A DNA stretch of 64,000 nucleotides from Ureibacillus sp. FSL W7-1570 (GTDB taxonomy: Bacteria > Bacillota > Bacilli > Bacillales_A > Planococcaceae): the NCBI RefSeq assembly GCF_038593265.1, contig NZ_CP151979.1, forward strand, positions 2,060,001 through 2,124,000, in the 5' to 3' direction. Below are positions 18,246-63,873 of the stretch, in pieces. A model generated the notes under the pieces. The model was not told where the DNA came from. It worked only from the letters and a program-made list of their open reading frames with translations, and did not search any database. Every line of letters starts with the position of its first letter. The first letter of the stretch is position 1. The position numbers and the translations under genes are program-made.

Positions 18246-18308
18246 GTTTTTTCTCCTTTCCATCTTTATTACTTACTTTTTCCCATCTTTCTTATTTTCA
18301 TTCTGAAC

Positions 18309-18353
18309 AATAAAAAAGTGACATAAAAACAAAACTGTTCTTATGTCACTTAT
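18309..18353 (-). terminator. Terminator after the GNAT gene
   Basis: On the minus strand AAGTGACATAAGAACAG forms a stem with its partner ending ATGTCACTT, followed by TTTTATT. Confidence 0.75.
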
Positions 18354-18356
18354 CAT

Positions 18357-27869: not shown

Positions 27870-27965
27870 ACAATTAGTTCCTCCCAATCTTGTATATCAT
27901 CCCCGATTATTTTATCACAACTTCCTATAAATAGAAAAACGTAACTTGCAACTTGGCCATAAAAT

Positions 27966-28013
27966 AACAGCATATTCGTAAAATTCAAAGTTTTACGAAT
28001 ATGCTGTTATTAT
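27966..28013. terminator. Long hairpin after the RpiR regulator gene
   Basis: AACAGCATATTCGTAAAA pairs exactly with TTTTACGAATATGCTGTT around TTCAAAG. Flanking T-runs are short, so efficiency is uncertain. Confidence 0.7.
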
Positions 28014-57261: not shown

Positions 57262-58134
57262 TTATTTATTTCCTGACGTCCATTCAGCGACTTTTTCCGC
57301 ATTTTCTTCCACCCATTTGCCCGCTGCTTCTTCCGGACTCATGCCATTCGATATATCAAGCATGACCGCTTCCATATCATCGGTTGTCCAGTGGAACTTG
57401 TCCAACACTTGATAAGCTTCCGGCATGTCTTCTTCCAACCCTTTTCTCACAAAGGTATGAATGGATTCTTCCCCGCCAAATACCCCTTTTGGATCATCCA
57501 AATATTTCAAATCGTATTTTGCAAATTTCCAGTGAGGCGTCCATCCAGTTACAACAATCTCTTCGCCCTTTTTGATCGCTTCTCCCAAAGCGACCGCCAT
57601 CGCACCTGATGATGATGGAACCAATTCCCAGTCCTTTAAATTAGCATATTCTTGAATGGCTCTTTCCGTTGCCTGCATCACACCAGCACCCGATTCGATT
57701 CCAGTGATTTGCATATTTGCATGTTTTGATAAATCTTCAATCGAATTGACATCATCCATATAGGATGGAACCACCAATCCGATTTTGGCACCTGTCAAGT
57801 TTTCCCCCAAGTCGACAATATCCTCTTTATATTCTTCATATTGGGCACCATGGGTCACCGGTAGCCAAGCCGCTACGGATGCATCGGCTTCCCCATTGGC
57901 AACCGCTTCCCACATAATGGCGTTGTCCAATGGTGTCAGTGTTACATCATAACCTAAATCCTCCAACACTTTTCCGATCACATGGGTGGATGCAATTTCC
58001 GAATCCCACTCGACATAGGCCAAGTTGATGGCTTTCTCTTCCTTTTTGGAAGTGCCTTCACCCTCATTTCCCCCACATGCGGCCAATAGGAGGCCTATTG
58101 CAAAAACAATTAACATGAGCTTCCTTATTTTCAT
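57262..58134 (-). CDS. opuAC: Glycine betaine ABC transporter substrate-binding lipoprotein (OpuAC)
   Basis: Binds glycine betaine outside the membrane for osmoprotection. The 290 residues start with a lipobox (LLLAAC, Cys about 20), then a class II binding fold with NLAYVEWDSEIASTHVIG, the NAIMWEAVANGEADASVAAWLPVTHG segment near residue 95 with aromatic cage tryptophans, and IVVTGWTPHWKFAKYDLKYLDDPKG near 205 (each quoted in part by its key residues Trp/Tyr). Third gene of the opuA operon, ending at a terminator that carries the intron insertion. Confidence 0.92.
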   Translation of the reverse strand: MKIRKLMLIVFAIGLLLAACGGNEGEGTSKKEEKAINLAYVEWDSEIASTHVIGKVLEDLGYDVTLTPLDNAIMWEAVANGEADASVAAWLPVTHGAQYEEYKEDIVDLGENLTGAKIGLVVPSYMDDVNSIEDLSKHANMQITGIESGAGVMQATERAIQEYANLKDWELVPSSSGAMAVALGEAIKKGEEIVVTGWTPHWKFAKYDLKYLDDPKGVFGGEESIHTFVRKGLEEDMPEAYQVLDKFHWTTDDMEAVMLDISNGMSPEEAAGKWVEENAEKVAEWTSGNK

Positions 58135-58152: not shown

Positions 58153-59007
58153 TCAGTATTTCTTTTTATTCAAGCTTTGCGTTAAACGGTCGATGATTAT
58201 GGCGAAAATCACCAGACTGATCCCCGCAACAAATCCGTTTCCGACTTGAGCCCTTTGCAATGCGGAAAGCACATCGCGGCCCAATCCAGGTGCACCGATC
58301 ATCGATGCAATTACGACCATCGATAATGATAAAAGCACCGTTTGATTGATCCCTGCCATAATGGTCGATTTGGCCAATGGAAGTTCCAACTTGAACAGCT
58401 TCTGCCATCCCGTGCTTCCATAGGAATCCGCCGCTTCTTCCAGCTCTTTCGGCACTTGGCGAATCCCCAAATTCGTAAATCTTACCGTCGGCGGCAATGC
58501 GAATATGACCGATGCAAACACCCCCGGAACGACCCCAATGCCGAAAAAGGCGACAGCCGGAATCAAATATACAAACCCCGGCATGGTTTGCATGAAATCC
58601 AAAATCGGTTTAATGATGTTGTCCGCCACTCTGCTTTTTGACATGAAAATGCCAATGGGAATGCCGATCAGAATGGCGATCACACTTGAAAATACCACCA
58701 ATGTAACGGTGTTCATCAATTCTTTCCAAAGCCCCTGATTATAAATAAACAGCAAACCTACAACCGAAAATACGGCCAAACCAAATTTCTTTTTCGTCGC
58801 AAAAAATGCAATGATTGCCACAATCAAGATAAATACAACGGGTGGAATATATAACAATGCGTCCGTAAAAGATTCCATTGAATTCTTCCCTGCTTTTTGA
58901 ATGAAACTGAACATGGACGAAAAATCTTCCGTCAACCAATCCATCAACGTTTCCACCCAATCAGCAACCGGGAGTGAAGGAATCGCATCCAACATTTTAT
59001 TCATCAT
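58153..59007 (-). CDS. opuAB: Glycine betaine ABC transporter permease (OpuAB)
   Basis: Membrane channel of the OpuA importer, 284 residues. The ABC permease coupling motif [26 protein letters not shown]-type region is visible near residue 200 ([16 protein letters not shown]), preceded by [20 protein letters not shown]. About six to seven membrane segments after an N-terminal amphipathic part. The ATG at 59007 has GTGGAGGTG 5 bases upstream and overlaps opuAA by 11 bases; an earlier in-frame start at 59046 is not needed. Confidence 0.92.
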
Positions 59008-60199
59008 CAACACCTCCACTTCTGTTCGATGCAGATAACGCTTCAATAACGACTCCTCTTATCAATACGCCCATAAGTTTCTCGTCCTTTACAACAGCAA
59101 TCGGTGTCGACGAATCGGAAATCGGGCTTAATACATCTTGGATCAACGTATCTGGTGAAACGGTCAACATATCTTGCCTCAATATTCCATGAAGATGCTT
59201 TTCACCCCGTTTTGAAGCTTCGTGAGCATCACTAGCTGTAATATAACCTTTGAAATTTCTTTGCTTATCAACAGCCAAAATGACGCTCACTTTTTCCTCC
59301 CTCATCAGCTGTAAAGCGACTTTTGGACCGTCCGTTTCAATATTGATGGACACAGGCCGTATCATGGCGTTTTCCACCGTCAACACTTTTGAACGATCCA
59401 CATCTTCCGTGAAGCTTCGAACATAATCGTTTGCCGGATTTGTCAATATTTCTTCTCCTGTTCCAATTTGGATGATTTGTCCATCCTTCATCAATGCAAT
59501 GCGATCCCCTATTCTAAGAGCTTCATTTAAGTCGTGGGTAATAAAGACAATCGTCTTTTTCATTTTTTGTTGCAGTTCTAACAATTCATCCTGCATTTCT
59601 TTCCGAATGAGTGGATCGAGAGCAGAAAAAGCTTCATCCATCAATAATATGTCTGGATCATTTGCAAGGGCTCTTGCAAGACCGACCCTCTGTTGCATAC
59701 CGCCTGACAATTGACTTGGATACTGGTCCTTATAAGCCAATAAACCGGCATTGTCTAAAGCCTTTTCTGCTTTCAATCGTCTTTCCTCTTTTGGGACTCC
59801 CTTCACTTCGAGGCCATATTCCGTATTTTGCAAGATCGTTCGATGGGGAAATAAACCGAAGTTCTGAAATACCATGCTCATTTTCTCTCTCCGGATGTTT
59901 CTCAATTCCTTCTTATTCAGTTTCGATATATTTTGACCATCGATATAGATGTTCCCGCTTGTAGGATCAATCAACCGGTTTAACAAACGGATCAATGTCG
60001 ACTTACCGCTTCCGGAAAGTCCCATGATGACAAATATCTCACCTTCATTCACCGTGAAATTTGCATCGTACACTCCGATTGTCGCACCGGTTTCGTTCAA
60101 TATTTCCGTCTTGCTCTTTTTCTGTTTTACAAGTTTTAGAGCAGCATTTACATGTTTTCCGAATATTTTCGTCACATGTTCCACTTTAATTTTTTCCAT
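58997..60199 (-). CDS. opuAA: Glycine betaine ABC transporter ATPase with CBS domains (OpuAA)
   Basis: Energises the OpuA importer. The 400 residues hold an ABC domain with Walker [10 protein letters not shown] near residue 62, signature [15 protein letters not shown] near 165, Walker [16 protein letters not shown] near 185, and [12 protein letters not shown]. Residues 280-390 form tandem CBS domains ([20 protein letters not shown] and [19 protein letters not shown]), which in OpuA proteins sense ionic strength or c-di-AMP. First gene of opuAA-AB-AC; its promoter lies at 60248-60277. ATG at 60199 with GAGAGGTGA upstream. Confidence 0.94.
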
Positions 60200-60233
60200 G
60201 TTTATCACCTCTCTGCAAACCAGCTCCCGAAAA

Positions 60234-60271
60234 AAAGTAACAACTCAATACTAACAAGAAGTTGTTACTTT
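60234..60271 (-). promoter_or_regulatory. Inverted-repeat operator at the opuA promoter
   Basis: AAAGTAACAACT (60234-60245) and its exact complement AGTTGTTACTTT (60260-60271), 14 bases apart. One arm fills the space next to the -35, the other covers the start point. The layout is that of a repressor operator; the neighbouring BusR-like regulator is the obvious candidate. Confidence 0.7.
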
Positions 60272-60277
60272 AGTCAA
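60248..60277 (-). promoter_or_regulatory. Sigma-A promoter of opuA
   Basis: TTGACT (60277-60272), 18-base spacer, TAGTAT (60253-60248), about 50 bases before the opuAA start. Confidence 0.7.
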
Positions 60278-60310
60278 ATTATCAATCTCAAAAACTGCAA
60301 AAAAATAATA

Positions 60311-60356
60311 GAAAAGGCTCACAAAAGCTCGAAATTGCTTTTGTAAGCCTTTTTTA
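60311..60356 (-). terminator. Terminator after the busR-like gene
   Basis: On the minus strand AAAAGGCTTACAAAAGC pairs with GCTTTTGTGAGCCTTTT, then CTATT. It separates the regulator transcript from opuA. Confidence 0.82.
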
Positions 60357-60989
60357 ATTAGGAAACAGAAATTTTTGAACCCTTTCCAAGCATTCATCAT
60401 TACCAATGAAATAAATTACATCATCCATCTCGATGGTCGCATAGGGGCCTGGGGAAATAATCAATTCTTCCCCTCTGCGGATACCGACAATGGTTGCCAT
60501 TGTGTGGTGCCAAAAGTTGATTTCTCCAATGGTCTTGGACAAGTGCGGAGAATCCCCTTTTATTTCAATATGGAAAGGAACAAAAGGATTGATTGAACGA
60601 AATCGTTCCGTACGGCTGACCAATCTTTCGGTAATCTCTTTCAAATTTTCAAGTTCTTTCTTTTGCCGATTGATGCTTTCAAACATCTCCAACTGAATTT
60701 GATGAATGGATTCTACATCCAAAAATTGTTTTATAAAATTTGCCGCTTTTTCGTAAGACTTGATGACAACACCGCTGCCCTTTGTCGCTTCCACAATCTC
60801 CAAATCCTGAAGAACAGCGATTGCTCTTCTTGCCGTCTCCGCTGAAACCCCGTACTGGCTGGCAAGGGAAGATCTGGCGTAAATTTTTTCACCAATGGTA
60901 TATTTGCCTTCTACAATTTTGGAGGCGATATCGGCGGCAATCTTTTGATATTTTGGCTGCTTCACAATTTTTAAATCTTTATTTTCCAT
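60354..60989 (-). CDS. busR: GntR-type regulator with RCK_C domain, BusR-like
   Basis: A 211-residue regulator. Residues 1-75 are a GntR winged helix (IAADIASKIVEGKYTIGEKIYARSSLASQYGVSAETARRAI, key part SLASQYGVSAETARRAIAVL). A coiled coil at 85-125 (MFESINRQKKELENLKEITERL in part) leads to a C-terminal RCK_C/TrkA-C domain (IVGIRRGEELIISPGPYATI and MDDVIYFIGNDECLERV). This is the architecture of BusR, which in lactococci and streptococci binds c-di-AMP and represses the betaine importer genes. Its position directly upstream of opuA fits that role. ATG at 60989 with AAAGGTT upstream. Confidence 0.82.
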   Translation of the reverse strand: MENKDLKIVKQPKYQKIAADIASKIVEGKYTIGEKIYARSSLASQYGVSAETARRAIAVLQDLEIVEATKGSGVVIKSYEKAANFIKQFLDVESIHQIQLEMFESINRQKKELENLKEITERLVSRTERFRSINPFVPFHIEIKGDSPHLSKTIGEINFWHHTMATIVGIRRGEELIISPGPYATIEMDDVIYFIGNDECLERVQKFLFPN

Positions 60990-61081: not shown

Positions 61082-61112
61082 TTGACCTTTACGTTGCGTC
61101 AACCTTTAAGAT
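61082..61112 (+). promoter_or_regulatory. MerR-type promoter with 19-base spacer
   Basis: TTGACC (61082-61087), 19-base spacer containing a partly symmetrical ACGTTGCGT core, TAAGAT (61107-61112). The long spacer is typical of promoters activated by MerR proteins, suggesting autoregulation of the following gene. Confidence 0.65.
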
Positions 61113-61134
61113 GAGATTGTCAGGAGGGATTTCA

Positions 61135-61896
61135 ATGGAATACACGATCAGCCAATTAGCGAAATTGGCAGGAATCAGTACAAGAACGTTGCGATACTAC
61201 GATGAAATCAACTTATTGAAACCGAAAAGAATCAACAGCTCCGGCTACCGGATTTATGGCCAAGAAGAAGTCGACCGGTTGCAACAAATTTTATTTTTCC
61301 GGGAATTGGGCGTCAGTATTGAAACAATCTTATCCATCATGAATGACCCAAACTTTGATTCACTCAAAGCTTTGGAAAGCCACTTGGCACAGCTGATGAA
61401 AAAGAGATCCCGACTGGACAACTTGATCGATTCTGTGAAAAAAACGATCGCCCATGAAAAAGGAGAGATGACAATGAATAATGAAGAAAAATTTGAAGCT
61501 TTCAAAGAGCGGTTAATAGAAGAAAATGAACAAAAATACGGCGGAGAAATCCGTCAAAAGTACGGCGACGATGCAGTCAACGGGTCCAATAATAAATTCC
61601 GCAATATGTCAAAAGAAGACTTTGAGGCATTCAAACAACTGGCAGAAGAAATTCTTGATCTGTTGGAAAAGGCTAAGAGAACGGGTGACCCTGCTTCCCC
61701 TCTTGCCCGGGAACTGGCCGCAAAACATAAACAATGGCTCACTTACACTTGGTCCTCTTATTCAAAAGAGGCCCATCGCGGATTGGTAGAAATGTATGTG
61801 GCAGACGACCGTTTTAAAGCCTACTACGACAAAAAAGGTGAAGGGGCGGCGGAATTTTTGAGAGACGCCGTTATTCATTATTTGGAGGAAAATTAA
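61135..61896 (+). CDS. mta: MerR-family regulator with TipAS domain (Mta-like)
   Basis: A 253-residue activator. The N-terminal 75 residues are the MerR winged helix (YTISQLAKLAGISTRTLRYYDEINLLKP, key GISTRTLRYYDEI), a coiled-coil dimerisation helix runs to about 115, and the rest is a TipAS antibiotic-recognition domain (YGDDAVNGSNNKFRNMSKEDFEAF and YVADDRFKAYYDKKGEGAAEFL, in part). B. subtilis Mta of this type activates multidrug efflux genes. ATG at 61135 follows CAGGAGGG; the upstream start at 61111 overlaps the promoter and is rejected. No efflux pump lies beside it. Confidence 0.87.
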   Translation: MEYTISQLAKLAGISTRTLRYYDEINLLKPKRINSSGYRIYGQEEVDRLQQILFFRELGVSIETILSIMNDPNFDSLKALESHLAQLMKKRSRLDNLIDSVKKTIAHEKGEMTMNNEEKFEAFKERLIEENEQKYGGEIRQKYGDDAVNGSNNKFRNMSKEDFEAFKQLAEEILDLLEKAKRTGDPASPLARELAAKHKQWLTYTWSSYSKEAHRGLVEMYVADDRFKAYYDKKGEGAAEFLRDAVIHYLEEN

Positions 61897-62790: not shown

Positions 62791-63873
62791 ATGCCTAAAA
62801 TTGTTTCGGTCAGCACCCATAAACCACAATACACTCTCCATCAGCATGAAATTGAGCAGTTTACAAAGGCATTATTTCAAAATAAAATTCCCCGATTAGA
62901 AAGGCTATTAAAAGTGTTTGAAAATGGGGAAATCAAGACCCGGCATTTTTGCGTGCCGTTGGAATGGCACAAAGTAGAACATACCTTTGAAGAACGGAAT
63001 GAATTATATATTCAAATTGCGGTGGAATATAGCGTGAAGGCGATTCAAAATTGCCTTCAGAATGAAATCTTTTTGAATCGGCCGATATCGACGGAAGAAA
63101 TTGACGCCATCTTTTTTGTATCCAGCACCGGCATTTCCACTCCCAGCATTGATGCACGCATCATGAACAAACTGAAATTTTCCGACCGGATCAAACGGTT
63201 GCCGATTTGGGGGCTCGGCTGTGTGGGAGGCGCATCCGGCATCAGTAGGGCATTTGATTATTGCCTTGCCCATCCCAAAGAAAAAGTGCTCGTTGTCTGC
63301 GTCGAATTATGCAGCCTCACCTTTCAGCGCAACGATTATTCAAAAAGCAACCTGGTCGGAGCTTCCCTTTTCGCGGACGGTACCGCTTGCGCTTTGGTCT
63401 GCGGCGATGAAGCGGAAGTGGAAACCCGGAAACAGATCCCCTATATTCTGCGAACGGCTTCAAAATGGATGCCCGATTCAGAAAATGTAATGGGATGGGA
63501 TATAAAAAATGATGGTTTTCATGTCATCTTTTCAAAAGATATCCCGACAATTATTTCAAATTGGCTTGGGCCGTTTATTCAATCATTTTTCAACGAAGCA
63601 GGCGTTTCATTAAAAGATCTGGAACATTTCATCGCTCATCCCGGAGGAAAGAAAGTGCTGCTTGCCTATCAGGATGCGCTTCAACTGAGCGAAAACCATA
63701 CCGCCCTTTCCAAAAAAGTTCTGCAAGAAAACGGCAATATGTCTTCACCGACCGTATTATACGTTTTGGATGAATATATGAAAATTGCGGGTAAAGCCGG
63801 GGCATACGGTTTACTGGTCGCTCTGGGACCCGGATTTAGCGGGGAAGCCGTACTGCTCCAATGGAGGGATTAA
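62791..63873 (+). CDS. bpsA: Type III polyketide synthase (BpsA)
   Basis: Chalcone synthase-like enzyme of 360 residues that makes alkylpyrones or triketides from long-chain acyl-CoA and malonyl-CoA. The catalytic triad is visible: Cys144 in GLGCVGGASG, the His in FIAHPGG near residue 287, and the Asn in ENGNMSSPT near 320. The final GFSGEAVLLQW loop is typical. It is followed directly by bpsB, whose product methylates the pyrones in B. subtilis. Start ATG with AAGGAAGG upstream. Confidence 0.92.
   Translation: MPKIVSVSTHKPQYTLHQHEIEQFTKALFQNKIPRLERLLKVFENGEIKTRHFCVPLEWHKVEHTFEERNELYIQIAVEYSVKAIQNCLQNEIFLNRPISTEEIDAIFFVSSTGISTPSIDARIMNKLKFSDRIKRLPIWGLGCVGGASGISRAFDYCLAHPKEKVLVVCVELCSLTFQRNDYSKSNLVGASLFADGTACALVCGDEAEVETRKQIPYILRTASKWMPDSENVMGWDIKNDGFHVIFSKDIPTIISNWLGPFIQSFFNEAGVSLKDLEHFIAHPGGKKVLLAYQDALQLSENHTALSKKVLQENGNMSSPTVLYVLDEYMKIAGKAGAYGLLVALGPGFSGEAVLLQWRD

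Follow-up and report, generated by a model that had tools for sequence, protein, structure and literature searches.

The window analysed here, a stretch of 64,000 nucleotides of Ureibacillus sp. FSL W7-1570, carries the opuA operon for a betaine importer, and the question that it raises is how this operon is controlled. In B. subtilis, opuA is controlled by other means and is not known to be a BusR target. From the sequence, the first-pass annotation had pointed to a BusR-like gene of the GntR-RCK_C type beside the importer and to a perfect 12-bp inverted repeat over the opuA promoter as its operator. Both elements were followed in the window, in 151 genomes of the same family and in more distant relatives within the class and the phylum.

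The busR gene and its product

The busR gene is found directly upstream of opuAA-AB-AC and on the same strand. Along the minus strand, the order is busR, a terminator-like hairpin (RNA fold of 60300-60360: −24.6 kcal/mol, z −7.5), the promoter with the repeat (60277-60234) and the operon (60199-57262); the features are collected in Table 1. The start of busR was placed at ATG 60989, the ORF list beginning at the upstream TTG 60998; that of opuAB at ATG 59007 (list start TTG 59046); and that of opuAA, picked by eye, at ATG 60199 (list start GTG 60208).

Table 1. Features of the busR-opuA locus, in window coordinates.
Feature	Position	Strand	Basis
busR, GntR-RCK_C repressor (predicted), 211 aa	60354..60989	-	ORF, Pfam, PDB sequence matches
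Terminator-like hairpin 3' of busR	60312..60353	-	Sequence and RNA fold
opuA promoter -35 (predicted), TTGACT, abuts operator	60272..60277	-	Promoter match; conserved TTGAC
Putative BusR operator, perfect 12-bp inverted repeat, gap 14	60234..60271	.	Sequence; kept in relatives
Upstream half-site AGTAAC	60264..60269	-	Sequence, pattern AGTNAC-N22-GTNACT
opuA promoter -10 (predicted), TAGTAT, TG before, within 22-bp spacer	60248..60253	-	Promoter match; spacer consensus
Downstream half-site GTTACT, 22 bp from upstream one	60236..60241	-	Sequence, pattern AGTNAC-N22-GTNACT
opuAA, betaine importer ATPase with CBS	58997..60199	-	ORF, Pfam ABC_tran and CBS
opuAB, permease	58153..59007	-	ORF, Pfam
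opuAC, substrate-binding protein	57262..58134	-	ORF, Pfam

Pfam placed GntR at residues 13-76 and TrkA_C at residues 142-208 of the product, both above the cut-off. The closest PDB sequences were 7wjg (8.8e-49) and 7b5t (1.1e-44), and the alignment with the latter, which is the full-length BusR of S. agalactiae, was itself full-length. The domains and this alignment give the BusR architecture, an N-terminal GntR winged helix-turn-helix (wHTH) and a C-terminal RCK_C (TrkA_C), which in BusR are linked through a coiled coil, so that, with opuAA-AB-AC adjacent, the proposed BusR-like gene beside the importer was borne out. The stretch between wHTH and RCK_C has 87 residues, the same as in two BusR of Enterococcus. 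The nearest named relatives of the protein are those of Ureibacillus terrenus (96% identity) and U. thermosphaericus (90%). Among the residues that contact DNA in S. agalactiae, R38, R53, G70, and G72 are kept as R39, R54, G71, and G73; K36, which is required for DNA binding there (PMC8517857), is replaced by Y37, and K54 by R55. A MerR-TipAS regulator gene (61111-61896) lies divergent to busR; it was present where the BusR of the locus was at least 74% identical and was not seen at 69% identity or less. Beyond it, the protein of 62791-63873 is presumably type III polyketide synthase-like (chalcone-synthase-like).

Ten of the 11 residues of the c-di-AMP pocket named in PMC8517857 are identical here, the exception being V158, replaced by F; the interface residue F182 is changed to Y, a frequent change (PMC8517857). 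Considering that the pocket residues are kept and that a single diadenylate cyclase domain is encoded in the genome, we infer, by analogy, that the window BusR would be controlled by c-di-AMP. Another signal, for example ionic strength alone, could act on a homologue that binds the same operator, as the DNA binding of L. lactis BusR responds to ionic strength too (PMC10243994). Moreover, the pocket Trp is present in 23 and absent in 69 of 92 GntR-RCK_C loci (most of them found in the phylum search, with 3 from plasmids and 3 second copies added), and some of those that miss it still have half-sites nearby. The window BusR keeps both the Trp-His and the SPGPY of the pocket, which, with the cyclase domain, makes a different signal unlikely, and c-di-AMP is the ligand that we prefer. 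Three genomes of genus g7 (L245, L246, and L247) encode, besides BusR, a distant GntR-RCK_C protein of 32-34% identity that has the Trp and lacks the SPGPY ending.

The inverted repeat in the opuA promoter

The arms of the repeat are at 60234-60245 and 60260-60271, and its sequence, AAAGTAACAACT-N14-AGTTGTTACTTT, holds AGTAAC-N22-GTTACT. The half-sites of BusR are 22 bp apart in the four sites determined, the "molecular ruler", and binding was lost when this spacing was changed by +5 or −10 bp (PMC8517857). Two half-sites at this same distance are thus present at the promoter of a betaine importer in the window. The 5'-GAC-3' triplet is important in BusR half-sites, a rule taken from four sites (PMC8517857). 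The window half-sites are without it and have AAC at that position, and across the family GAC was found in 3/50 upstream and 13/50 downstream half-sites. In our view GAC is a sequence preference and does not define the BusR family; its absence counts against a strict BusR reading.

The promoter was called from TTGACT (60277-60272) and TAGTAT (60253-60248), 18 nt apart on the minus strand, with a score of 9/12. Within 1 kb there are 5 matches of that score, with 2.6 expected, which is near chance, and therefore the call relies on its conservation. In 50 out of 50 distinct 58-base stretches of the family, the -35 TTGAC has its first base 8 positions ahead of the upstream half-site, and within the spacer the family sites keep TTTGTTA..aT, which we read as a TG-extended -10. 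Taking into account the fixed place of the -35 and the -10 in the spacer, the operator would enclose the promoter. One arm falls between -35 and -10 and the other just downstream of -10, so the repeat does lie as it had been described, with its arms flanking the -10.

The 64 kb hold 11 places with a perfect repeat of at least 12 bp and a gap no longer than 30, the opuA one among them; when 60209-60300 was shuffled by dinucleotides, such a repeat arose in 0 out of 3000 shuffles. The short pattern AGTNAC-N22-GTNACT showed no genomic enrichment (5 places versus 16 for the reversed control); the main weight of the operator case is on conservation. The window has a second match at 18317-18350, which we do not take for an operator: a GNAT-like gene is followed there by a terminator-like hairpin (span 18308-18356; RNA fold −19.3, z −5.6) that carries AGTGAC-N22-GTCACT by chance. 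In U. terrenus both arms of that hairpin are changed together (GTGGC/GCCAC), and the length of its loop varies among four aligned genomes, so that the 22 bp are not kept. None of the 3 remaining genomic places has the extended arms described below, and at one of them (L003) the match falls inside a coding ORF, at its 3' end. The extended site occurs once in the genome at up to two mismatches, among the matches listed, and this single site is at opuA; autoregulation of busR was discarded on that ground. Elsewhere in the window, at 27963-28011, two 21-bp arms 7 nt apart form another perfect inverted repeat.

The opuA repeat can also fold as RNA (−14 kcal/mol, z −2.5) with T residues following, as an attenuator or terminator of opuA would. 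Against this function, the predicted start lies downstream of one arm, an A in one arm faces a C in the other in several relatives, the run of T residues is not conserved, the spacer retains promoter-like elements, and the exact sequence recurs at promoters of osmolyte-import genes only; we consider an RNA element extremely improbable and continue with the repeat as a putative operator.

Distribution of the site among relatives

From 83 two-gene loci, the own one and those of relatives, 54 distinct busR-opuA intergenic regions were obtained. AGTNAC and GTNACT were exact at 22 bp in 45 of them, and among the other spacings from 5 to 44 there was one match, at 33 bp. With one mismatch allowed, the short motif gave also 20, 12, and 8 matches at spacings 8, 9, and 31, which we take to be putative internal partial repeats. 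With two mismatches it is met by chance (2/13 regions without busR), so the count of the extended pattern, AGTNACAACY-N14-RGTTGTNACT, was preferred: 45 regions had it exactly, 6 with one mismatch, and 3 with two.

The busR gene was detected in 63 of the 151 family genomes (own included) and in 8/19 genera. The exact extended site was present in 50/63 genomes with busR versus 0/88 without it, and the exact reversed control in 0/151; the co-occurrence has a Fisher value of 3e-28 with kinship ignored. At up to two mismatches the site was found in 85/151 genomes, that is, 63/63 with busR and 22/88 without, a level at which the reversed control is likewise common. Three of these matches in busR-less genomes (L133, L134, and L090) were located, two inside long ORFs and one just past an ORF. 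A close opuAA exists in 8/28 busR-less genomes (13 genes) and none in 20/28, at an E limit of 1e-120; within 450 bp upstream of those 13 genes the motif was not found, and the extended pattern matched at best with 5-8 mismatches. The repeat is therefore conserved where the regulator gene occurs, which, together with the 22-bp geometry, upholds its assignment to BusR. Repressors of the OpuAR type, of the GbsR family, do act on opuA elsewhere (PMC6207618), and such a regulator might use the repeat with busR as a mere neighbour; since the exact site tracks busR and has the BusR geometry, we judge this very improbable and retain BusR as the protein that would bind. A busR-opuA locus of the Lysinibacillus type (L071) was seen in a metagenome-assembled genome labelled Pelosinus, probably by contamination.

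The 151 genomes hold 72 exact sites: 43 at opuA, 29 ahead of genes of the OpuAC family, and none elsewhere. By coordinates, 42 of the opuA sites adjoin busR and one is at opuAA on a split contig; the 29 downstream genes match OpuAC or its permuted form. At up to one mismatch, 38 loci other than opuA hold 44 sites, of which 42 precede an OpuAC-family gene and 2 do not (L294 and L295); a further inexact site, L133, is within an ORF of a busR-less genome. Pfam recognized OpuAC in 8/8 of these proteins that were run, and in 6 of them the best stretch begins near profile position 110. This start and the swapped order of the pieces point to circular permutation in some OpuAC-family binding proteins. 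The halves of the profile are swapped in the products of L099, L110, L111, L117, L138, and L141, OpuAC-family genes with operators of the BusR type. In genus g13 (L140, L141, L142, L144, L145, and L149) there are two consecutive binding-protein genes, each with one site. In some busR-opuA gaps of this genus two sites abut, both with 2 mismatches, for instance G144:C13:2182319-2182386; this pair resembles the two sites of S. agalactiae. The window genome has the exact site at opuA only; the predicted binding-protein regulon is a feature of its relatives.

Outside the family, GntR-RCK_C relatives were found in 85/398 genomes and 60/267 genera of the phylum (E 1e-25), and in 31/398 genomes and 20/146 genera of the class (E 1e-30). 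Class loci of other families with opuA above 68% either keep AGTGAC-N22-GTCACT before opuA (L257-L261) or, as in L262 and L263, did not show it. The 92 loci mentioned above and 20 from the class search make 112. Of these, 7 hold an exact RACAAC-Nk-GTTGTY with a spacing of 22 bp, 15 with 23 bp, and 1 with 24 bp, and spacings of 20, 30, and 34 bp occur in one locus each; shuffled sequences had about 0.03 per spacing, with a maximum of 2 in 40 rounds. This 22/23-bp peak is post hoc, because the ACAAC half-site was picked after inspecting 16 loci. An unbiased count of 7-mer palindromes near 32 busR-like genes did not peak at 22 (13 pairs there, versus 9 to 20 for spacings of 12-21), AGTNAC and GTNACT were exact in those 32 loci 3 times at 22, once at 23, and once at 20, and near busR an ACAAC-type site was lacking in 55/92 loci even at one mismatch.

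The length between wHTH and RCK_C was tried as a simple cause of 22 versus 23 bp and rejected: it is constant, 87 residues in 22/23 Trp-type loci of the phylum and in 11/11 family proteins, and the exception, L157 (79), is broken. In L157, TAG and TAA interrupt the frame of the busR relative, which neighbours an opuA-like gene, and the operator there forms a long perfect palindrome; the regulator may be decaying, or its gene recoded. Judged from these sequences and post hoc, BusR-type proteins may have a ruler with two settings, 22 or 23 bp, which is the boldest of our readings and the least supported. The broader reading, which we rate slightly below even, is that the (G)ACAAC half-site is widespread, and that the ruler would be set at 22 bp in the family and the enterococci or at 23 bp in several other families of the phylum despite an equal wHTH-to-RCK_C length. 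The coiled coil would then be no simple length ruler, the 1-bp register may insulate related circuits, and in Lysinibacillus and relatives BusR would govern a small set of genes for betaine-binding proteins, part of them circularly permuted. The 22/23-bp split would let natural variants test the molecular-ruler idea.

The proposed circuit and known systems

The protein family, the operator geometry, its conservation, and the confinement of exact sites to osmolyte-import genes were observed, and from them we infer DNA binding, repression, a tetramer, and c-di-AMP as the co-repressor. It is highly probable, in our judgement, that a BusR tetramer on half-sites 22 bp apart represses betaine import by opuA with c-di-AMP. 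BusR, probably tetrameric, would occupy the two AGTAAC half-sites and cover the -10 and start region, and import of glycine betaine would be off. If the protein behaves like its S. agalactiae counterpart, c-di-AMP bound to RCK_C would favour the DNA-binding form, so that at high c-di-AMP, with enough K+ and turgor, opuA would be off; upon osmotic upshift c-di-AMP would fall and opuA be derepressed.

The circuit is of a known type, in a lineage for which no published description was found: the openly licensed PMC literature yielded neither BusR in Ureibacillus or Lysinibacillus nor binding-protein genes as BusR targets. The present results place predicted BusR control of betaine uptake in these two genera and their kin, with an operator that is clean and computable. 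The finding also bears on the question, present in the literature, of BusR targets beyond the importer, as the exact sites of the family are confined to osmolyte-import genes. The parallel drawn earlier with lactic acid bacteria stands, and BusR is not restricted to these bacteria, given the phylum relatives described above and Clostridium. A paper on c-di-AMP in C. difficile reportedly treats BusR. The name is already in print for Clostridium (PMC6108528, PMC5919688).

The BusR-busA systems of L. lactis and S. agalactiae have the same GntR-RCK_C repressor and half-sites 22 bp apart (PMC8517857, PMC5919688, PMC6108528); the S. agalactiae footprint spans -35, -10, and start, and in L. lactis busR is immediately upstream of its operon, as in the window (PMC5919688). 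They differ in that the window half-site is AGTAACAACY and the known ones are GAC-centred, that opuAB and opuAC are separate genes, that Tyr37 and Arg55 stand for K36 and K54, and that binding-protein genes of the relatives share the opuA operator. Two plasmid loci of Enterococcus (L185 and L186), whose BusR are 50% and 45% identical to that of the window, repeat the gene order of the window, busR and opuA flanking AGTGAC-N22-GTCACT; they differ by a G at the fourth base of the half-site and by a permease and binding protein fused in one gene. The OpuAR system also has its repressor gene beside opuA, but the protein belongs to another family, and GntR, BusR, and c-di-AMP are absent from its description (PMC6207618).
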